Assembly: GCF_000758545.1 (NCBI RefSeq)
Contig: NZ_CP009279.1
Span: 372,001-436,000, forward strand
DNA: 64,000 bases
DNA from: Paenibacillus sp. FSL H7-0737
Lineage (GTDB): Bacteria; Bacillota; Bacilli; Paenibacillales; Paenibacillaceae
Reading direction: 5' to 3'
Below the pieces are notes generated by a model that was given only the letters and a program-made list of their open reading frames with translations, did no database searches and was not told where the DNA came from. The position numbers were made by a program, and so were the translations under genes. Shown piece after piece: positions 21,504-44,084 of this stretch (position 1 is the first letter of the stretch; each line of letters starts with the position of its first letter).

Positions 21504-24500
21504 ATGAAGCAGTGCAGACTGTTGCTTCTGATTAGCATTCTATTTATGCTCTTACCTCCTACTGCCATTCACGCCGAAAGAAAGGAGATCGAATATCAAG
21601 TAGAGCTGGAATATCCACCTTATAAATATATAAAAGATGGGTACATGACTGGTTTTGATATTGAATTGAGTAATATGATCTTTGAGAAGCAGGATTACGA
21701 TGTCCACTACAGTACAGGGAGGTGGCCTGATGTATATAATCGGCTCGTTCAGGGAGATATCGAAACAGCGGGTCTAATGGCAGTAACGGAAGGACGAAAA
21801 CAAGAGTTGTTATTTTCGGAACCTGTTTTCAAAAGCTATATTTCAATCTACGCAAGGCGAGGGCTTAAGGGTGAGATCGATTTAAATAAGCTTGGAGGTT
21901 ATAAGATAGGTCTAGGAAACGGGCAGTATTCTGAAACAGTACTGAACGGGAAACTGGGAATTAATGATTACGTAGAATTTGCTACGATTCCTGAAGCCTT
22001 GGAGGCTTTAGAAAAAGGGGAGATTGACCTTCTATTTGAGAATCAGGAGGTGGTCGATTATCTGCTCGTTGAACAGGGGAAGACGGACAGTATTATTAAG
22101 AAAATGAATGATCTTTATCCAAGGGATGTGGCTTTTGCAATCAATAGGTCTACACCGGAGTTAGTTTCTTATGTTAACGAGAGATTGGTGGAATTACAGC
22201 ATTCGGGTGCTTTTGAAGAATTGTACCAGAACTATTTCTTCGTTCATTCTGATTATTATAAAGGCATGATCCACAAAAGATGGGTTTACGGAGCAATCCT
22301 TCTATTCTGTCTTCTTATGCTGGGTGGAGTCCTGCTTAAAATGAATATTAATCGTTTACGGCGTGCTGTTTATTCAGAGCATCAATTTTTTGAGGATGTT
22401 ATAGAGCATAGTGGTATGGTAGTTTGGGCGGTGCAGGCAGATAAAAAGGTAGTGCGGTTTAACAAGTTTGCTGAGCGGATGACGGGTTTAAGCGAAAAAG
22501 AGGTGCTGGGAGTAAATATTGAGGATATCGATGGTCTAAAAGGTAGTACGGCTGCAATCCGTGATCTTTTGATGCGGGCAATACGGAATGAATATGTTAA
22601 CAACGTAGAAATTAAGCTCCCAGACCAGTCATCTGAAGCGCGATATTTCTCATTCCGGACAGCCTTATTAAAAGGACTTGATAAGCAAGCAGCCGATATC
22701 TTTGTACTTGTAGGTGTGGATATCGATAATCGTAAACAAAATGAGCTGAGGCTACAGCTAAGTTATAAGGAATTGGAAGCTACATACGAAGAGCTCTCAG
22801 CGACAGAGGTCGATCTACAGGAACAATTTAATAGGCTTCAAATCAGTGAACGACGTTTCCGGCTCACCACAGAAGGTTCTGGTGCATATATGTGGGAGTT
22901 GGATTTGGAGGCGAGACGATTTCATTTATCAGACCGATGGTATGACCTCATAGGTTACACGAAGGATGAAATCAACTCGTTTGAAGAGGGAGCTTTTAGT
23001 ATTGTTCATCCCGATGACATAGCTTCAACCCGTAAGCTTAAACATGATCACCTGGAGGGTGTTACACCTATTTTCGAAACGGAGTTCCGCATGATTACCA
23101 AAGACAATCAAATCGTGTGGTTTGAAGTTAGGGGTAAGGCTACCGTTAATCCAAAGGATGAAGTTCTATTATTTATGGGCTCCTTGATTGATATCAGCGA
23201 GCGGAAGCAAGCGGAGCTTAATTTGAGCAACAGCTACCAAGAACTTGGGGCGACCTATGAGCAGCTCACGACCACTCAACAGGAGCTTCTGGTACAATAT
23301 AATATGCTTCTAGACAATCAGAAACATATGCATCGTCTGGCTTATGTGGATGCGCTTAGTAACTTACCTAACCGTTTATGTCTGCTGGAGACCATGGAGA
23401 AGTATCTAAAGCATCCGGGAGGGAAATTTGCACTACTGTTTTTAGATTCAGATAATTTCAAATACATCAACGATACCTTAGGTCATAAATCCGGGGATGT
23501 ACTCATCCGGAAGGCAAGTGAGAGATTGCAGTCACTGATGCGGGAAGGAGATATGCTCTCACGGCTAGGTGGAGATGAATTTGTTATTTTTATTAAGGAT
23601 ACAGAGGACCGTGAGGCTGTATTGAATCTGGCAGAGCGTATAATGAGAGCGTTCAGGCAGTCCTTTTTAATAGGAGAGAGTAATCTATACGTCTCGCTAA
23701 GCATCGGGATTTCCTTTTATCCAGAGGATGGAGAGACGGCCGAGCAAATTTTGAGTAATGCGGATGTGGCGATGTACCGTGCTAAAGAGGATGGCAAGGG
23801 AACTTATGTAGTCTATAACAAATCGATGCATACAGCGTTTAATGAACGAATGAATATAGAGAAACATTTGCGCAGTGCAATGAACAATAATGAATTTGAA
23901 CTGAACTATCAGCCCCAGATGGATATCGAATCCGGATTCATCTCAGGCTTTGAAGCATTAATTCGTTGGAACAGCCCATCGCTTGGTTCTGTATCTCCAC
24001 TTTCGTTTATAAAAATTGCTGAGGATTCCAGACTGATCATCGATATTGGTGAATGGGTGCTTCGTGAATCTTGCATCTTTATGAAAGGTATTCAAGATCG
24101 TACAGGTGTTCCTTATAAAATATCGGTCAACATTTCGATTATTCAGCTATTCCAGAACGATTTTATTGAGATGGTACAGGATAGTCTGGCTGTAAGTGGC
24201 CTAAATCCAAGCTGTCTTGAGCTGGAAATCACGGAGTCTATTTTTATGAAATCATTTGAGAGTATCCTGGGTAAGCTGCAGTTTCTTAAATCTAAGGGCA
24301 TTAGCATCGCCTTGGATGATTTCGGAACGGGTTACTCATCACTTAGCTATTTGCAGCAATTGCCGATTTCAACGCTCAAGATGGATAAAACCTTTATTGA
24401 TTCACTCTCAGAAAAAGCTAACAGCCAGTCTTTTGTGCAGTCCATTATACAGTTGGGGCATAATATGGGACTGAAAGTTGTAGCAGAGGGTGTAGAAGAG

Positions 24501-24797: not shown

Positions 24798-25892
24798 TTA
24801 GCCGATTACGATTTTGTTCTTCCCGGTATTCTTAGCCTCGTAAAGTGCATCGTCTGCTTTCTGAAATGTAGAATTTTTGGAATCTGTACCTATAAAATCG
24901 TGCATACCGATACTGACGGTTACGCTTTTGCCGTTCATTTCCGCAAAAGGGGTATCGGAGATGGACGTTAGAATATGCTTCATAATCTCATGAGAATGAT
25001 CAAGGGTTTTAGAAGTCAGGATGACGACAAATTCTTCCCCGCCAAAGCGAGCCGCGAAATCATCAGGACCGACATGCTCGAGGAGGATCGCTGCAACCTT
25101 TTGTAATACGATATCTCCAACGGAATGCCCATAGGAATCATTTACTTTTTTGAAGTTGTCGATGTCCATAACGGCTAGCTGCATGGGAAATGGATTACTC
25201 TGCTGATGATCGATCAGCCATCCTAAGTATTCATGAAACGTCTTATGATTATAAAGGTCCGTCAGAGGATCGATCTTGGATAGCCGATCCATGATTATAT
25301 TCTGAATGCGTAATTCCTGTTCTGACTTTACGGAGTTCTCCAGCGATCGCATCAAATCACGCCCACGACCGATGACTGCAAAGCCTGCTAAAGCAGTAGC
25401 AGCAAAAATAAGAAGAATAATGATAGTTTGGGTGATGGGGACATATCCATGATTAGATGCCTTGATGAATAAAATGATCGTGTACAGTAGACAAACAGCA
25501 GAAGAGGCTATCATATAACTAGACTTCATATAGATCATGGATACAAGCAGCGGCAGCAGCATAATTAATGACATTACATACAGTTCATCATTGAGATTGA
25601 TGATAATCAGAAGCGCAAATAAATGGCTCGCTACTGTAATAGCTAGCTCGGACCATAAGGGTTTCCATCTATAGATAAATTCCAGAATAATGATCAAAGT
25701 CAATATGATGGAATCAGGAATCAGCGACTGAGTAATAAACTCTCCCATGGTTAGGGTATCCGAATGTTGGCCCCATAGGCATTGAGAAACAAACATATGA
25801 ATACTTAAATCCACAATCAGGATGATCCAGAATGCATTAAGCAGCACGCGATTCCAATGGGTCTGACGAGGAGTTTGAGATGTAGTATGCAT
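24798..25892 (-). CDS. Membrane-bound diguanylate cyclase
   Basis: A 364-residue protein with five or six hydrophobic segments in residues about 15-180, a short coiled linker, and a C-terminal GGDEF domain (about 205-364). The active-site motif is FGGEEFVVIL, so cyclase activity is expected. The inhibitory RxxD site is missing: the equivalent position reads GPDD. It should make c-di-GMP from two GTP at the inner face of the membrane in response to an unknown cue. The ATG follows AGAGGAAC. It is convergent with the GGDEF-EAL receptor gene, and repeat copy 2 lies between the two. Confidence 0.9.
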   Translation of the reverse strand: MHTTSQTPRQTHWNRVLLNAFWIILIVDLSIHMFVSQCLWGQHSDTLTMGEFITQSLIPDSIILTLIIILEFIYRWKPLWSELAITVASHLFALLIIINLNDELYVMSLIMLLPLLVSMIYMKSSYMIASSAVCLLYTIILFIKASNHGYVPITQTIIILLIFAATALAGFAVIGRGRDLMRSLENSVKSEQELRIQNIIMDRLSKIDPLTDLYNHKTFHEYLGWLIDHQQSNPFPMQLAVMDIDNFKKVNDSYGHSVGDIVLQKVAAILLEHVGPDDFAARFGGEEFVVILTSKTLDHSHEIMKHILTSISDTPFAEMNGKSVTVSIGMHDFIGTDSKNSTFQKADDALYEAKNTGKNKIVIG

Positions 25893-40056: not shown

Positions 40057-40073
40057 GTTCTAATGAAAAGAAC
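40057..40073. promoter_or_regulatory. Possible SinR-type inverted box
   Basis: GTTCT and AGAAC arms face each other over 7 nt, with AAAGAAC (minus-strand GTTCTTT) exactly matching the GTTCTYT SinR half site at 40067-40073. It lies between odhA and the sinI riboswitch. Weak evidence on its own. Confidence 0.35.
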
Positions 40074-40360
40074 GCTGTTTCTTCTCATTACCCATTCCTA
40101 AGGCCCACTAAAATGATTCTAATATCCTTATTTTTAACTAATAGGGAAGGAAGTATCATTATATTGGCTTAATTAATTTTATGAATGGGACGAGTATCGT
40201 GTTAATAGGACAAGATATCGCACAAAAGCGCTTCTATTTTTTGTTTTTTAATGGAAAAACTAATCAGAAATCGACACACTTTTCCACTTTAGTATAGTAT
40301 AATGTTATTGCAGTTAGCGATTTTCATATATTTCAAAGTAGATCCTTTCGTGTAAAGGGT

Positions 40361-40446
40361 CCAGTAAAAGGTAAACCTGCCGAAAGACAGGGGCACAAAG
40401 TCGCGGGTCTAAGGTAGAAATACTATGACAGCCGGATTGCCTGGGG
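40361..40446 (+). promoter_or_regulatory. Cyclic-di-GMP-I (GEMM) riboswitch upstream of sinI
   Basis: The element follows the class I consensus in order: GGUAAACC (40370-40377), CUGCC-GAAA-GACAG hairpin with GAAA tetraloop, GGCACAAAGUC (matching RCRCAAAGYC), GGGUCUAA, a variable GUAG/CUAU stem, and AUGACAGCCGGAUUGCC closing P1. An outer CCAG/CUGG pair extends P1. It ends 12 nt before the AGGAGG of sinI. An 8-bp hairpin GATCCTTT/AAAGGGTC precedes it, and a TATAAT -10-like box lies at 40298-40303. No terminator is seen between aptamer and gene, so control may be translational; ON or OFF sense cannot be read from sequence. Confidence 0.88.
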
Positions 40447-40471
40447 ACGTAAAATCTTAGGAGGAGATTTT

Positions 40472-40627
40472 TTGGACAAGTCCAACCAGGGAAGCAACAG
40501 AGAACAGCAGGTCATTGATCTAGACGTTGAGTGGGTACATTTATTATTAGCAGCTAAGAAGGCTGGCATAAAGGCAGATGAAATTCGTCGATTCTTTCAT
40601 GAGAAGACTGTGCAAGCCGTGCAGTAA
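40472..40627 (+). CDS. sinI: SinI-like anti-repressor
   Basis: A 51-residue protein starting at TTG behind AGGAGG. The core LDVEWVHLLLAAKKAGIKADEIRRFF aligns with the SinI dimerisation helices of B. subtilis (LDQEWVELMVEAKEANISPEEIRKYL), which bind SinR and pull it off DNA. It follows a c-di-GMP-I riboswitch and is followed by a strong terminator, so it is a monocistronic riboswitch-controlled unit. Unlike B. subtilis, sinI here is convergent to sinR instead of upstream in the same direction. Confidence 0.85.
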   Translation: MDKSNQGSNREQQVIDLDVEWVHLLLAAKKAGIKADEIRRFFHEKTVQAVQ

Positions 40628-40649: not shown

Positions 40650-40687
40650 GAAAAAGGGCCCAGCGATAACTCGCTGGGCCCTTTTTC
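40650..40687 (+). terminator. Strong terminator of sinI
   Basis: AAAAAGGGCCCAGCG pairs with CGCTGGGCCCTTTTT over a short loop. It separates sinI from the convergent sinR gene. Confidence 0.92.
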
Positions 40688-40829: not shown

Positions 40830-41171
40830 TTAATCCTTCTGATCAAGGCGCCATTTCTGGTAGTCCAGAAACTCCTTGAATTCGCGTTTGCTTATGCCTG
40901 AGGCCATAGCTTCCTGCACCAATCGGAACCATTCCGAATCTAAAGGTGACTCCTCAGCATCATTAGGTTCTCCATAGAGCAAAGCGTGGATGGATACCTG
41001 AAGCGCATCGGCGATCTTTTCGATAAACTGGATTGAAGGATTGGATTGGATGTTTCTCTCCACATTGCTAAGATACGACTTAGCAACATCCGCTCTGTCC
41101 GCAAGCTCAGATAGGGACAATCCCTTTTCTAGGCGGAGATGCTGGATACGTTGGCCCATATTTTGTGACAC
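40830..41171 (-). CDS. sinR: SinR master regulator of biofilm formation
   Basis: A 113-residue XRE-family repressor, clearly orthologous to B. subtilis SinR. The helix-turn-helix region reads GLSLSELADRADVAKSYLSNVERN with NPSIQFIEKIADALQVS (residues about 18-58), and the C-terminal Sin dimerisation domain LDSEWFRLVQEAM...EFKEFLDYQKW (about 77-107) matches nearly residue for residue. SinR binds GTTCTYT sites and represses matrix genes; SinI disrupts it through the same C-terminal helices. The GTG start follows GGAGGGG, and a good sigma-A promoter precedes it (41204-41232). The tasA operon lies directly upstream on the same strand. Confidence 0.95.
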   Translation of the reverse strand: MSQNMGQRIQHLRLEKGLSLSELADRADVAKSYLSNVERNIQSNPSIQFIEKIADALQVSIHALLYGEPNDAEESPLDSEWFRLVQEAMASGISKREFKEFLDYQKWRLDQKD

Positions 41172-41328: not shown

Positions 41329-41934
41329 TTAGTAATCTTTTTTAGCACCTTGTTTAGCTACGAAATCCCATGTCAGGGTTATGCTATCGCCTTGGAAAAT
41401 ATTTTGATCTTGGTTATTTTCCACAAATTCGAATTGGACGGAGAAGCTGTCATTGGTGCCGGCTTTAATACCAGATGCTTCGGTGAAGAGTTGATCCCAA
41501 CCAGTATTTTTTACGAGATCCGGATGTTGAGATTTTAAATCAGCAAGCGTAGTTTGATAGACTACATCTTCTGGAGAAACTACGGTTCCTTTATCGTTAT
41601 TTCTAAGGAATTTGACCTTAATGAATTGGGCTAAATCCAGGTAGTTGTCACCTTTAGCATCCGTAATTTGAGTGGAAGTGTTCAGAATAATAGATCCGAT
41701 ATCGAGCGAACCATCGTTTTTCAATTTGAAGGATTTGGTTACAGTATCACCTGGTTTTAGGTTTGGAATATTTACGATAACTGAAGGGTCGGAGTTCAAA
41801 TCGAGTGTACCTGCAGCAAATGTAGCAGTGCTTTGTGCAGTGTCACTAAAGTAAGCGAAGGTTCCTCCACCAATCAATGATAAACCCAGTGCTGCTGATG
41901 CTACGCCAAGACCCAATGTTTTTTTGATACCCAT
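41329..41934 (-). CDS. tasA: TasA/CalY-family biofilm matrix fibre protein
   Basis: A 201-residue secreted protein of the TasA/camelysin family. The N terminus is a SipW-type signal peptide (KKTLGLGVASAALGLSLIGGGTFAYFSDT, about residues 4-32) running into the family motif ATFAAGTLDL and FKLKNDGSLDIGSI. B. subtilis TasA polymerises into the proteinaceous fibres of the biofilm matrix. The ATG at 41934 follows GAGGAGG; a 28-residue upstream extension is rejected. The gene is the third of the tapA-like, sipW, tasA operon and ends at a terminator. Confidence 0.93.
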   Translation of the reverse strand: MGIKKTLGLGVASAALGLSLIGGGTFAYFSDTAQSTATFAAGTLDLNSDPSVIVNIPNLKPGDTVTKSFKLKNDGSLDIGSIILNTSTQITDAKGDNYLDLAQFIKVKFLRNNDKGTVVSPEDVVYQTTLADLKSQHPDLVKNTGWDQLFTEASGIKAGTNDSFSVQFEFVENNQDQNIFQGDSITLTWDFVAKQGAKKDY

Positions 41935-42026: not shown

Positions 42027-42614
42027 TTACTGTATTTCAGTTGGGGGTGGAGAGGCGGGCAGTATAGCAGCATTTTTCTTTTCGAGTGCAGCTACAGCCT
42101 TCCATGACGAATACAGAGCATAGAGCAGGAGCATCAAGCCTGGTACGATCATGAGCATGACACTTCCAGCTTTGGAAACTGCGAAATTCATAGCGTAACC
42201 TACGTAAGGTACGGTGACCCCGGTATACTCAGCTACAACATTCGTGGAACTGGTAGGGTTCATATCAGGCGCATCATTGTTATCGCCTTTCGTGCGATAC
42301 ATGGATTCACCAGTAGCGTTGTTCATTGTTGCTTCTACAACACGGTGAGTAATGAGCAGGTTTTCTTCATTTCTAAAGGTGATCACATCGCCTTTTTTGA
42401 AGCGATTCATATCTCCTCCGGGTTTTAAAGCGACAATCGATCCGGTTTGAATCCCTGGTTCCATCGAACCTGAGAGTACCGATTTGATCTGGTATCCGAA
42501 GAAGGCAGGTTCACCGCCGGAGGCCTTTGATAAAACTACGGCTACCACCAGCAGAATGAATATCACAAGCATGATGCTCGATAATGTATTGTTGATCATT
42601 TTTTTAATCCGCAT
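42027..42614 (-). CDS. sipW: SipW-type ER-like signal peptidase I
   Basis: A 195-residue membrane signal peptidase of the archaeal/ER class, recognised by SGSMEP (catalytic serine, about residue 47) and THRVV (histidine in place of the lysine of the prokaryotic class, about residue 86), with N- and C-terminal membrane anchors. SipW processes TasA and TapA. The ATG at 42614 lies directly after the stop codon of the tapA-like gene, with AAAGGTGG overlapping its end, so translation is coupled; the GTG at 42626 is an alternative. Confidence 0.93.
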   Translation of the reverse strand: MRIKKMINNTLSSIMLVIFILLVVAVVLSKASGGEPAFFGYQIKSVLSGSMEPGIQTGSIVALKPGGDMNRFKKGDVITFRNEENLLITHRVVEATMNNATGESMYRTKGDNNDAPDMNPTSSTNVVAEYTGVTVPYVGYAMNFAVSKAGSVMLMIVPGLMLLLYALYSSWKAVAALEKKNAAILPASPPPTEIQ

Positions 42615-42615
42615 A

Positions 42616-43890
42616 TTATTCGCCACCTTTAACTTGTTGAGGGTCCGAAGGGGCTGGTGTTGCTACCGGTGGGGAAGTGGTTGTATCTTCCGCTTTTGGC
42701 GCCTCCTGAGGAACCGCTTGCTGTGGTACATCTTTTGGAATCGTTAGCTCTTCACCAATTTCCGGAACGACCGGGTTAGTGGCTGGGGCTTCAGGCTGTT
42801 CATTATTTATATTCTCTGGAGTAGCTTCACCTTTCGGTGGAGTCACTTCCGTTTTTGCTTTCTCCTCAGCTTCAGCTTTCGCTTTGTCCTCAGCTTCTTG
42901 CTTTTCTTTTTTCTCCAGTGCCAAACGTTCTTCTTCTTTCTTCGTTTGTTCCAGCGCCTCTAGTCGGGCTTTCTCAAGCGCTTCCAACTGTTGTTCACGG
43001 GTTTGACTGATCAATTGGAGCTGACTCTGAAGATTGCTGATTCCTGAAGTAGCCGATTCTTTAAGATCATTCATTTCAGTATTGAGATTTTCATAAGTGG
43101 AGGTTAGTTCGCTAGAGATATTGCCGGCCGGCTGACTAAAAGGAATCAGGAAAGGTAACGGCTGCTGAAACGCCTCGTTGCGTAACTCGGGTTGTCCATA
43201 TACATCACTGGTCACTACCGAAGCAAATGGAAGCCCGATGTCGTGTATGGAGTTTAGATATTGGATGACTCCCTTTAAGGAAGCATTCAGGGATTCAGAG
43301 ATTACACCGCTTTGATTCAGGCTGCTTTGCAGCTCTCTGAAGAATTGTTCATCCTTGATTTCTAGACAGTTTGAATCTAGAGAGGTCATATATCCTCCAA
43401 TCTGGAATAGGACGGCTGCTGCTGCATTCAGCTCACCATTGATTTCGTTCCAAATTTGGCTGTTGGTGGCCAGTTGCTCATTCACGCCATCGATTTGAGA
43501 TTGAAGCGCGGAGATTTGTGTGGAAATCTCTTGCGCTGCGACATCAAGCTCATCCAGCGTCATGCCTTCTATTCCCGAAACGTCTGAGAGACTGCCTGAA
43601 GGGGTATAGCTTTGCAGCGATCCTTTTAAAGCAGTAGCTCTTTCGATATGATCTTTGAGTTCTGTTAGAAGCCCCTTGATCGAGTTTGGAAATACTTCGC
43701 AAAAGCTAATTGTGCTAGTGGTTTGCGTAGTAGCTCCAAAACCACCATAGGTACTACCCACTTGCTGTGAGGTAGTCAGAAACAAGACGGAGACAGCCAT
43801 TCCTGATTGCAGAACACGTAATCCGATTTGTTTCTTTCGTTTAGGTCTTCTTTTTGCTGATCTGGGTCTCAGAGGAATACCTCCCCTCAA
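42616..43890 (-). CDS. TapA-like secreted, coiled-coil biofilm protein
   Basis: A 424-residue protein at the tapA position of a sipW-tasA operon. After a basic N terminus (SAKRRPKRKKQIG) comes a hydrophobic segment with a SipW-type pattern (AVSVLFLTTSQQVGSTYGGFGA, about residues 31-52), then a domain with two cysteines, a long Gln/Glu coiled-coil region and a Lys/Glu- and Pro-rich tail. It shares no clear sequence with B. subtilis TapA, so the name rests on position, signal type and low-complexity tail. The start is unclear: the TTG at 43890 lacks a good ribosome site, while GGGGAGG is ideally spaced for a CTG at 43872. Confidence 0.65.
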   Translation of the reverse strand: MRGGIPLRPRSAKRRPKRKKQIGLRVLQSGMAVSVLFLTTSQQVGSTYGGFGATTQTTSTISFCEVFPNSIKGLLTELKDHIERATALKGSLQSYTPSGSLSDVSGIEGMTLDELDVAAQEISTQISALQSQIDGVNEQLATNSQIWNEINGELNAAAAVLFQIGGYMTSLDSNCLEIKDEQFFRELQSSLNQSGVISESLNASLKGVIQYLNSIHDIGLPFASVVTSDVYGQPELRNEAFQQPLPFLIPFSQPAGNISSELTSTYENLNTEMNDLKESATSGISNLQSQLQLISQTREQQLEALEKARLEALEQTKKEEERLALEKKEKQEAEDKAKAEAEEKAKTEVTPPKGEATPENINNEQPEAPATNPVVPEIGEELTIPKDVPQQAVPQEAPKAEDTTTSPPVATPAPSDPQQVKGGE

Positions 43891-43920
43891 TGTCTTGAGT
43901 TTCTTTGGTTCGTTATTATC

Positions 43921-44084
43921 GTTCTTTATTGAGAACAACTTCTGTAATGAATAATACATGGAATAAAATGAAAAGAAAACTGTCAATAAGTCTCGTTTGT
44001 GCTCTATAAAGAACAAAAATGTTAATTTATCTCTATTTATCTCAGTTTATCGCTTGATATCTATTTTTATTCGCAATAGAGAAC
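43921..44084 (-). promoter_or_regulatory. SinR box cluster upstream of the tapA-like operon
   Basis: The SinR half site GTTCTYT occurs as GTTCTTT (+, 43921-43927) facing AGAAC (43932-43936), as GTTCTTT on the minus strand (44014-44008) and as GTTCTCT on the minus strand (44084-44078). A TTGACA -35-like hexamer lies at about 43984-43979 (minus). Clustered boxes around the promoter fit repression by SinR. Confidence 0.65.

Follow-up and report, generated by a model that had tools for sequence, protein, structure and literature searches.

The SinI/SinR pair is a model biofilm decision circuit whose main known input is Spo0A~P. In Bacillus subtilis, the sinI promoter is activated by Spo0A~P and SinI inactivates SinR (PMC7643835); the accessible part of that source makes no mention of c-di-GMP. 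A putative "(c-di-GMP)-sinI" riboswitch was listed for Bacillus methanolicus MGA3 (BMMGA3_08510) in 2015 (PMC4342826, Table 4), and in the available sections it consists of a mention in the text and a line in the table, which give no mechanism, class or conservation. A 2023 publication proposed that a c-di-GMP-I riboswitch of Paenibacillus sp. FSL P4-0081 acts in antisense on a homologue of sinR (PMC9943018, accessible part). In B. thuringiensis, sinI was stated to rise on diguanylate cyclase overexpression and high c-di-GMP, from the authors' unpublished array data (PMC7793685, accessible part), and in C. difficile SinR orthologues are described as acting on c-di-GMP levels, which is the opposite direction (PMC8653836 and PMC8470499, accessible parts). 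A riboswitch on sinI is unreported in the available portions of PMC10240345, PMC8876208, PMC12747935, PMC6143707, PMC8470499, PMC8653836, and PMC7643835. Literature searches by title for sinI or SinR together with riboswitch, c-di-GMP, or Paenibacillus, which covered few subscription papers, gave no report besides PMC4342826 and PMC9943018.

The locus studied here lies in Paenibacillus sp. FSL H7-0737, within a window of 64,000 nucleotides (contig NZ_CP009279.1, positions 372,001 to 436,000), and all coordinates below refer to that window unless stated otherwise. The source genome is 6.77 Mb in a single contig, and a domain search found the SinI domain in two of its genes, sinI and sinR. As in B. 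methanolicus, a putative c-di-GMP riboswitch is located upstream of sinI (PMC4342826, available sections), whereas the present analysis adds two aptamer classes, many genera, a proposed switching element in the coding region, and a locus convergent with sinR. The FSL P4-0081 locus is probably of the same kind, with a c-di-GMP-I aptamer facing the sinR homologue, but the published target is sinR in antisense whereas the sense target here is sinI. As in B. subtilis, SinI is predicted to inactivate SinR, and a candidate 0A-box-like promoter element appears to be kept at this locus. The aptamer and the convergent sinR distinguish it from the B. subtilis control genome, in which a SinI-domain match was present and no RF01051 or RF01786 match was found. 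Relative to RF01051 and RF01786 riboswitches in general, the aptamers match above the gathering thresholds, and the differences are the target gene and, in Paenibacillus, a proposed switching strand in coding sequence. The RNA class and the protein family are known; as far as our literature searches show, novelty lies in how widely the arrangement occurs, in the replacement of one aptamer class by the other, and in a switching strand placed within codons. The features of the locus are as follows.

40272..40303, + strand: promoter, CGACA (40272-40276), 21 bp, and a TATAAT -10 element (40298-40303); from sequence and genus conservation
40341..40361, + strand: P0 hairpin GATCCTTT/AAAGGGTC, present in the leader MFE; overlaps the 5' strand of the aptamer closing stem by 1 base
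40361..40445, + strand: complete class I c-di-GMP riboswitch aptamer; Rfam covariance models RF03167 and RF01051
40440..40448, + strand: CCTGGGGAC, 3' strand of the P1 closing stem and proposed switching strand; identical in 63/64 leaders
40459..40464, + strand: sinI ribosome-binding site AGGAGG; from sequence, conserved
40472..40627, + strand: sinI, TTG start, 51 aa, SinI-type anti-repressor; PF08671
40480..40490, + strand: anti-P1 element GTCCAACCAGG within sinI codons 3-7; identical in 64/64 leaders
40656..40686, no strand assigned: terminator-like hairpin GGGCCCAGCGATAACTCGCTGGGCCC plus T-run between convergent sinI and sinR; a GC-rich perfect hairpin
40830..41171, - strand: sinR, with HTH_3 (PF01381) and the SinI/SinR interaction domain (PF08671), convergent with sinI; Pfam
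41329..41934, - strand: tasA-like matrix protein with SipW-type signal peptide; PF12389 at 252.8 bits, TIGR04088 above cut-off
42027..42626, - strand: sipW signal peptidase; NF046067 at 253.7 bits, cut-off 190
42616..44016, - strand: first gene of the putative matrix operon, upstream neighbour of sipW; tapA-like by position only

The identity of the aptamer was deduced from covariance models and from the ligand pocket. Scanned against Rfam at gathering thresholds, the window gave a single match, to RF03167 (c-di-GMP-I-GGC; 69.1 bits with a gathering threshold of 59, E 2.9e-14), and on the same 40361-40445 the c-di-GMP-I model RF01051 scored 77.3 bits (cut-off 35) over its full length, 1-87. 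The latter score confirmed the original prediction of a complete c-di-GMP-I aptamer and refuted its concern that a GEMM score might be absent; the 12 nt that it gave between aptamer and ribosome site are actually 13 nt to the AGGAGG at 40459-40464, a trivial difference. The GGC variant was rejected as the identity since its diagnostic base, G for A at the intercalating position, is absent, the RF03167 consensus reading GCGAA and the window ACAAA, with the canonical A. The pocket motifs GG-U-AAAC, CAC-A-AA, and UGCC were present in all 64 genus leaders, so that the ligand-pocket nucleotides are canonical; we take the pocket positions to be those numbered G20, A47, and C92. Given the absence of the GGC-marking base, the higher RF01051 score, and the canonical pocket motifs, the element in the window appears by sequence to be an ordinary class I c-di-GMP aptamer. 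The Rfam 15 clan competition keeps RF03167 over RF01051 at many loci, though the variant-defining base is A in 64/64, and the RF03167 label misleads at these loci. The source genome contains nine class I aptamers. L011 and L015 (712531-712801 in the genome's own numbering) are tandem class I aptamers before the gene of a protein of 269 aa whose start resembles a signal peptide, and others precede receptor-like, thiamine-enzyme-like, and glycoside-hydrolase-like genes, with products guessed by eye.

The gene downstream encodes a short protein of 51 aa without an HTH. Its product matched PF08671 (SinI) at 36.0 bits, over the cut-off of 31.4 (E 6e-9), in agreement with the claim that a 51-codon, TTG-started gene here matches SinI. 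The NCBI equivalog for Bacillus SinI, NF046031, was not reached (32.4 versus 80 bits), and the product is SinI-type rather than an exact Bacillus equivalog. Its nearest solved relatives are the SinI chains 5tmx_A and 1b0n_B, and among solved structures the sinR product matched the SinR chain 1b0n_A (E 1.5e-39), which places relatives of both in one solved entry, 1b0n. The closest named SinI relatives are from P. odorifer (88%) and P. monticola (73%). The PF08671 match of sinR (46.3 bits, residues 77-103) provides an adjacent partner with a matching interaction domain. The start codon of sinI is TTG in 63 and GTG in 1 of the 64 genus genes. Codon tests were done on 32 of these 64 genes after removal of those with at least 95% identity. 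From codon 8 on, pS was 0.69 versus a pN of 0.19, and the median dN/dS was 0.155 (294 unsaturated pairs out of 496 from the 32 non-redundant sequences). Judged by its codons, sinI is a real gene under purifying selection, and the frame was found at 64/64 loci, which upholds the expectation that it is conserved among relatives.

The terminator that had been placed directly after the gene corresponds to the terminator-like hairpin and T-run at 40656-40686, which is likely bidirectional. In 62/64 loci, sinI is followed by a hairpin with 8 bp or more and then by a T-rich stretch; in 54/64, an A-rich stretch also precedes this hairpin. In the matrix region beyond sinR, the tasA-like protein did not reach the TasA equivalog NF046066 (102.9 versus 450 bits), and the gene at 42616-44016 had no NCBIfam match. 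Two GGDEF domains, at 23340-23798 (+) and 24813-25277 (-), lie about 15-17 kb from sinI and are possible local makers of c-di-GMP; the source genome has 20 GGDEF matches. The palindrome GTTCTN7AGAAC occurs once in the window, at 40057-40073 before the sinI promoter (chance expectation 1.91 when one mismatch is tolerated), and GTTCTN6AGAAC lies at 43920-43935 before the matrix operon. Both palindromes resemble what we take to be the SinR operator consensus. Genome-wide, GTTCTN6AGAAC was unenriched (11 sites versus 9 for the reversed control), and only 5 of the 63 relatives had GTTCTN6-8AGAAC in the sequence fetched, which in most cases stops short of the matrix operon's start. With genome counts near the control and few relatives carrying them, no claim is made for these palindromes as SinR operators.

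Conservation within the genus supports the pairing of aptamer and gene. The SinI domain was found over the cut-off in 64 of the 100 genus genomes searched, and in all 64 a short sinI-like gene that converges on sinR is among the places listed. An RF01051 or RF03167 aptamer was directly upstream of sinI in 63/63 fetched genus loci, in addition to the window. Since every fetched relative with the gene also has the aptamer directly before it, it was concluded that the pairing is not due to chance, and the originally suggested check, whether the riboswitch-sinI pair is conserved in related genomes, came out in favor of the pairing. The distance from the aptamer end to the sinI start is 26 nt in the window and 24-29 nt in 64/64 loci. 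Fetched sequence extended about 2.5 kb past sinR, and in the 63 loci it contained sinR in 63/63, a tasA-like gene in 42/63, and sipW in 49/63. Five further SinR-like loci (L112-L116), for which no paired short gene was among the matches listed, had no aptamer.

The strongest argument came from outside the genus. In the family survey, the SinI domain was present in 84/245 genomes, 57 of them outside the genus, and 35 non-genus sinI loci were fetched from the matches listed among those 57. At gathering thresholds, a class I aptamer was found directly before sinI in 9 of the 35, all from genus g18, and a class II aptamer (RF01786) directly before sinI on the same strand in 15, from genera g2, g6, g13, and g17; neither class was found before sinI in the remaining 11 at the same thresholds. 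By eye, one of these 11 (L123) retains a class I aptamer in its 3' half only, the 5' half being replaced, and is apparently a decayed switch. Class I and class II c-di-GMP aptamers are described as binding the same ligand while being non-homologous (PMC12452182, accessible part). The occurrence of unrelated aptamers with a shared ligand at the same site thus argues strongly, at the level of sequence, that the ligand is c-di-GMP and that its link to sinI has been selected.

At greater distances the arrangement was found again in part of the genomes. No aptamer was found directly before sinI in 20/20 sampled loci from other families of the order, which were taken because a short sinI was visible and are not a random draw; class II was sought with RF01786 and a custom model, and class I with a regex and the RF01051 matches listed. 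In two order-level loci (L174 and L185), a class II aptamer was seen by eye about 330 and 560 nt upstream of sinI with a small ORF between. In the class survey, 78/398 genomes had the SinI domain, and the 30 with the best SinI scores, again not a random draw, were examined. RF01051 was directly before a SinI ORF in at least 18 of these 30, from 13 families (G681, G497, G537, G459, G713, G792, G737, G479, G768, G485, G800, G616, G633, G457, G798, G721, G575, and G624), and the remaining 12 had no aptamer before SinI among the matches listed. G479 has at least three SinI-like genes (L207, L226, and L227), each with a class I aptamer directly before it. Five loci of genus g67, whose SinI presumably resembles the B. 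subtilis protein, had no aptamer before sinI by the regexes, which had been validated on known cases (class I 72/72, class II 15/15); a looser pattern matched once, at L231. The aptamer-sinI pairing and its predicted role are supported, and much more widely than originally proposed.

The promoter was examined for a Spo0A input. In 62/64 genus leaders, exactly 21 bp separate CGACA from the -10 element; the other two have TGACA, and the full TTCGACA is present in 9/64. The pattern of CGACA, 21 bp, and -10 was found in 29 of 20,000 random 150-nt pieces of the window, 28 of which contained this very site. The Spo0A box consensus is given as TGTCGAA (PMC10134886, accessible part), the reverse complement of TTCGACA, and CGACA forms its core. 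Among the 35 other family loci, the 21-bp spacing occurred in 6/15 with class II, 1/9 with class I, and 6/11 without an aptamer. Since the 0A-box-like element is kept, the riboswitch is likely a second input to a Spo0A-type promoter rather than its replacement, and a promoter of that type appears from its sequence to be retained beneath the RNA switch. Transcription would then still depend on Spo0A~P through this element, and SinI would need both signals. The predicted departure from the B. subtilis wiring would stand as regards the added riboswitch input but not as regards Spo0A, whose box-like element is kept in 62/64 promoters.

From these data it is proposed, with good though not full confidence, that c-di-GMP acts through the class I riboswitch upstream of sinI to turn on SinI translation, by which SinR would be inactivated and the matrix genes (tasA-sipW) likely raised. 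Without ligand, the closing-stem strand of the aptamer, CCUGGGGAC (40440-40448), would pair with GUCCAACCAGG (40480-40490) in the first sinI codons, P0 would occupy the 5' side and leave the aptamer unclosed, and the anti-P1 pairing would shut the ribosome site and start codon in a closed loop. With c-di-GMP bound, the switching strand would be held in P1 with CCAG (40361-40364), and the initiation region would be freed so that SinI is made. SinI would in turn inactivate the convergently encoded repressor SinR, and the matrix genes would be freed.

This scheme is consistent with the following folding and codon data. The free MFE of the leader forms the anti-P1 helix, and anti-P1 was favored over P1 by 5.3-11.5 kcal/mol in 64/64 leaders, in a calculation with no ligand or tertiary terms. 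The P0 hairpin occurs in the genus with G-U, A-U, and C-G variants and is not conserved in genus g18. Codons 4-6 of sinI (TCC AAC CAG) showed zero synonymous change among the 32 non-redundant genes, whereas every other residue that is invariant in all 32 and has synonymous codons varies synonymously; K3, Q13, and D16, kept in part of the genes, were likewise without synonymous change. It was deduced from codons 4-6 that the anti-P1 element is under constraint at the RNA level. In genus g18, the element differs only by AA to GC at the two bulged bases in 6/9 loci, and the other three (L124, L134, and L141) have differences on both strands. The covariation alignments A3 and A2 held 16 sequences from 73 leaders and 15 sequences from 15 leaders, respectively. 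For class I anti-P1 (16 sequences), 95.1% of the cells were paired versus at most 52.4% when the strands were slid, and no covarying pair was found in this nearly invariant helix.

Leaders from elsewhere suggest the same logic in another form. Of 20 class I leaders from the class-level genomes, 13 were folded, and in 9 of these 13, from other families of Bacilli, hairpins of -9.8 to -14.2 kcal/mol reached the SD, with the last strand of the aptamer (e.g., CCUGAAAUAC) pairing to a stretch that contains 2-3 SD bases (e.g., GUAUUUUAGG); the other 4 of the 13 had no SD-reaching hairpin. In class II leaders, the C-rich 3' strand of the aptamer paired with 3-4 SD bases in 15/15, although this hairpin showed no gain over controls in a fixed alignment, no support from covariation, and a mean z versus shuffles of only -1.06. 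Because the switching strand goes into the SD by the same strand-swap logic, an ON switch is predicted for these leaders as well. In the genus leaders, the SD region retains a small hairpin in both states. Transcription-terminator control at this SD hairpin was considered unlikely, as its stem is AU-rich and the T-run is mostly broken or short (39/64 leaders; unbroken in 25/64, including the window).

The direction of the switch was weighed against the reverse, in which c-di-GMP lowers SinI, for example because the start codon folds into its own hairpin, UUGGA/UCCAA. In the models, the P1-locked start codon can form this 5-bp hairpin, and when the footprint was short (SD to about +8), the P1-locked state cost more to open than the anti-P1-locked state in 64/64 rows, with 9.2 versus 5.7 kcal/mol in the window. 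For longer footprints, the P1-locked state was cheaper than the free ensemble in 38/64 (-20..+12), 57/64 (-20..+15), 55/64 (-20..+18), and 47/64 (-20..+20), but the mean gain was small, 0.3 to 1.8 kcal/mol, and the window was slightly dearer at -20..+12; as modeled, accessibility may lend weak support at best to an ON switch. Against the OFF direction, the helix that spans the initiation region is stronger in the free state, four leaders (L075, L104, L105, and L106) have a broken start hairpin, and the pairing of the switching strand into the SD in class II (15/15) and class I Bacilli (9/13) leaders predicts ON. The OFF direction was accordingly judged improbable, and a translational ON switch is held to be likely. 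The ON direction is also consistent in sign, by analogy, with the rise of sinI reported for B. thuringiensis.

Two other explanations concern the target and the ligand, and both were given very little weight. The riboswitch might act through antisense RNA to repress the convergent sinR, as published for the c-di-GMP-I riboswitch beside the SinR homologue of Paenibacillus sp. FSL P4-0081 (PMC9943018, accessible part), and the riboswitch in the window does point toward sinR. However, a sinI with its own RBS and signs of purifying selection intervenes 24-29 nt past the aptamer in 64/64 loci, a terminator-like hairpin follows sinI in 62/64, and several other Bacilli (e.g., G616, G633, and G497) have the aptamer before sinI with sinR co-directional; moreover, the paper that made the proposal never uses the word "sinI" in its main text, as available. 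The antisense explanation is thus highly improbable. Equally hard to sustain is an aptamer of altered specificity, of the c-di-GMP-I-GGC or c-AMP-GMP type, that senses another ligand. Its support is the retention of RF03167 in the Rfam clan competition, but the window has the canonical A (ACAAA rather than GCGAA) with the higher bit score for RF01051, class II c-di-GMP aptamers occupy the same place in sister genera, and the G that becomes A in c-AMP-GMP sensors, at what we assume to be the position of that change, is kept in 64/64. The preferred explanation remains that c-di-GMP itself, through the sense transcript, turns on SinI translation.

With less assurance, though still on balance, we favor the broader view that c-di-GMP gating of SinI is widespread and probably old across Bacilli, that at least two unrelated aptamers serve it with the same strand-swap ON logic, that the switching strand lies within sinI codons in Paenibacillus, and that the textbook B. 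subtilis circuit would describe only lineages without it. The findings also suggest that the published antisense-riboswitch example be reassigned to an easily missed short gene, sinI. If true, many Bacilli outside the B. subtilis group would feed c-di-GMP directly into SinI/SinR via RNA, and the drive of matrix by c-di-GMP in Gram-positive spore formers would become directly testable.
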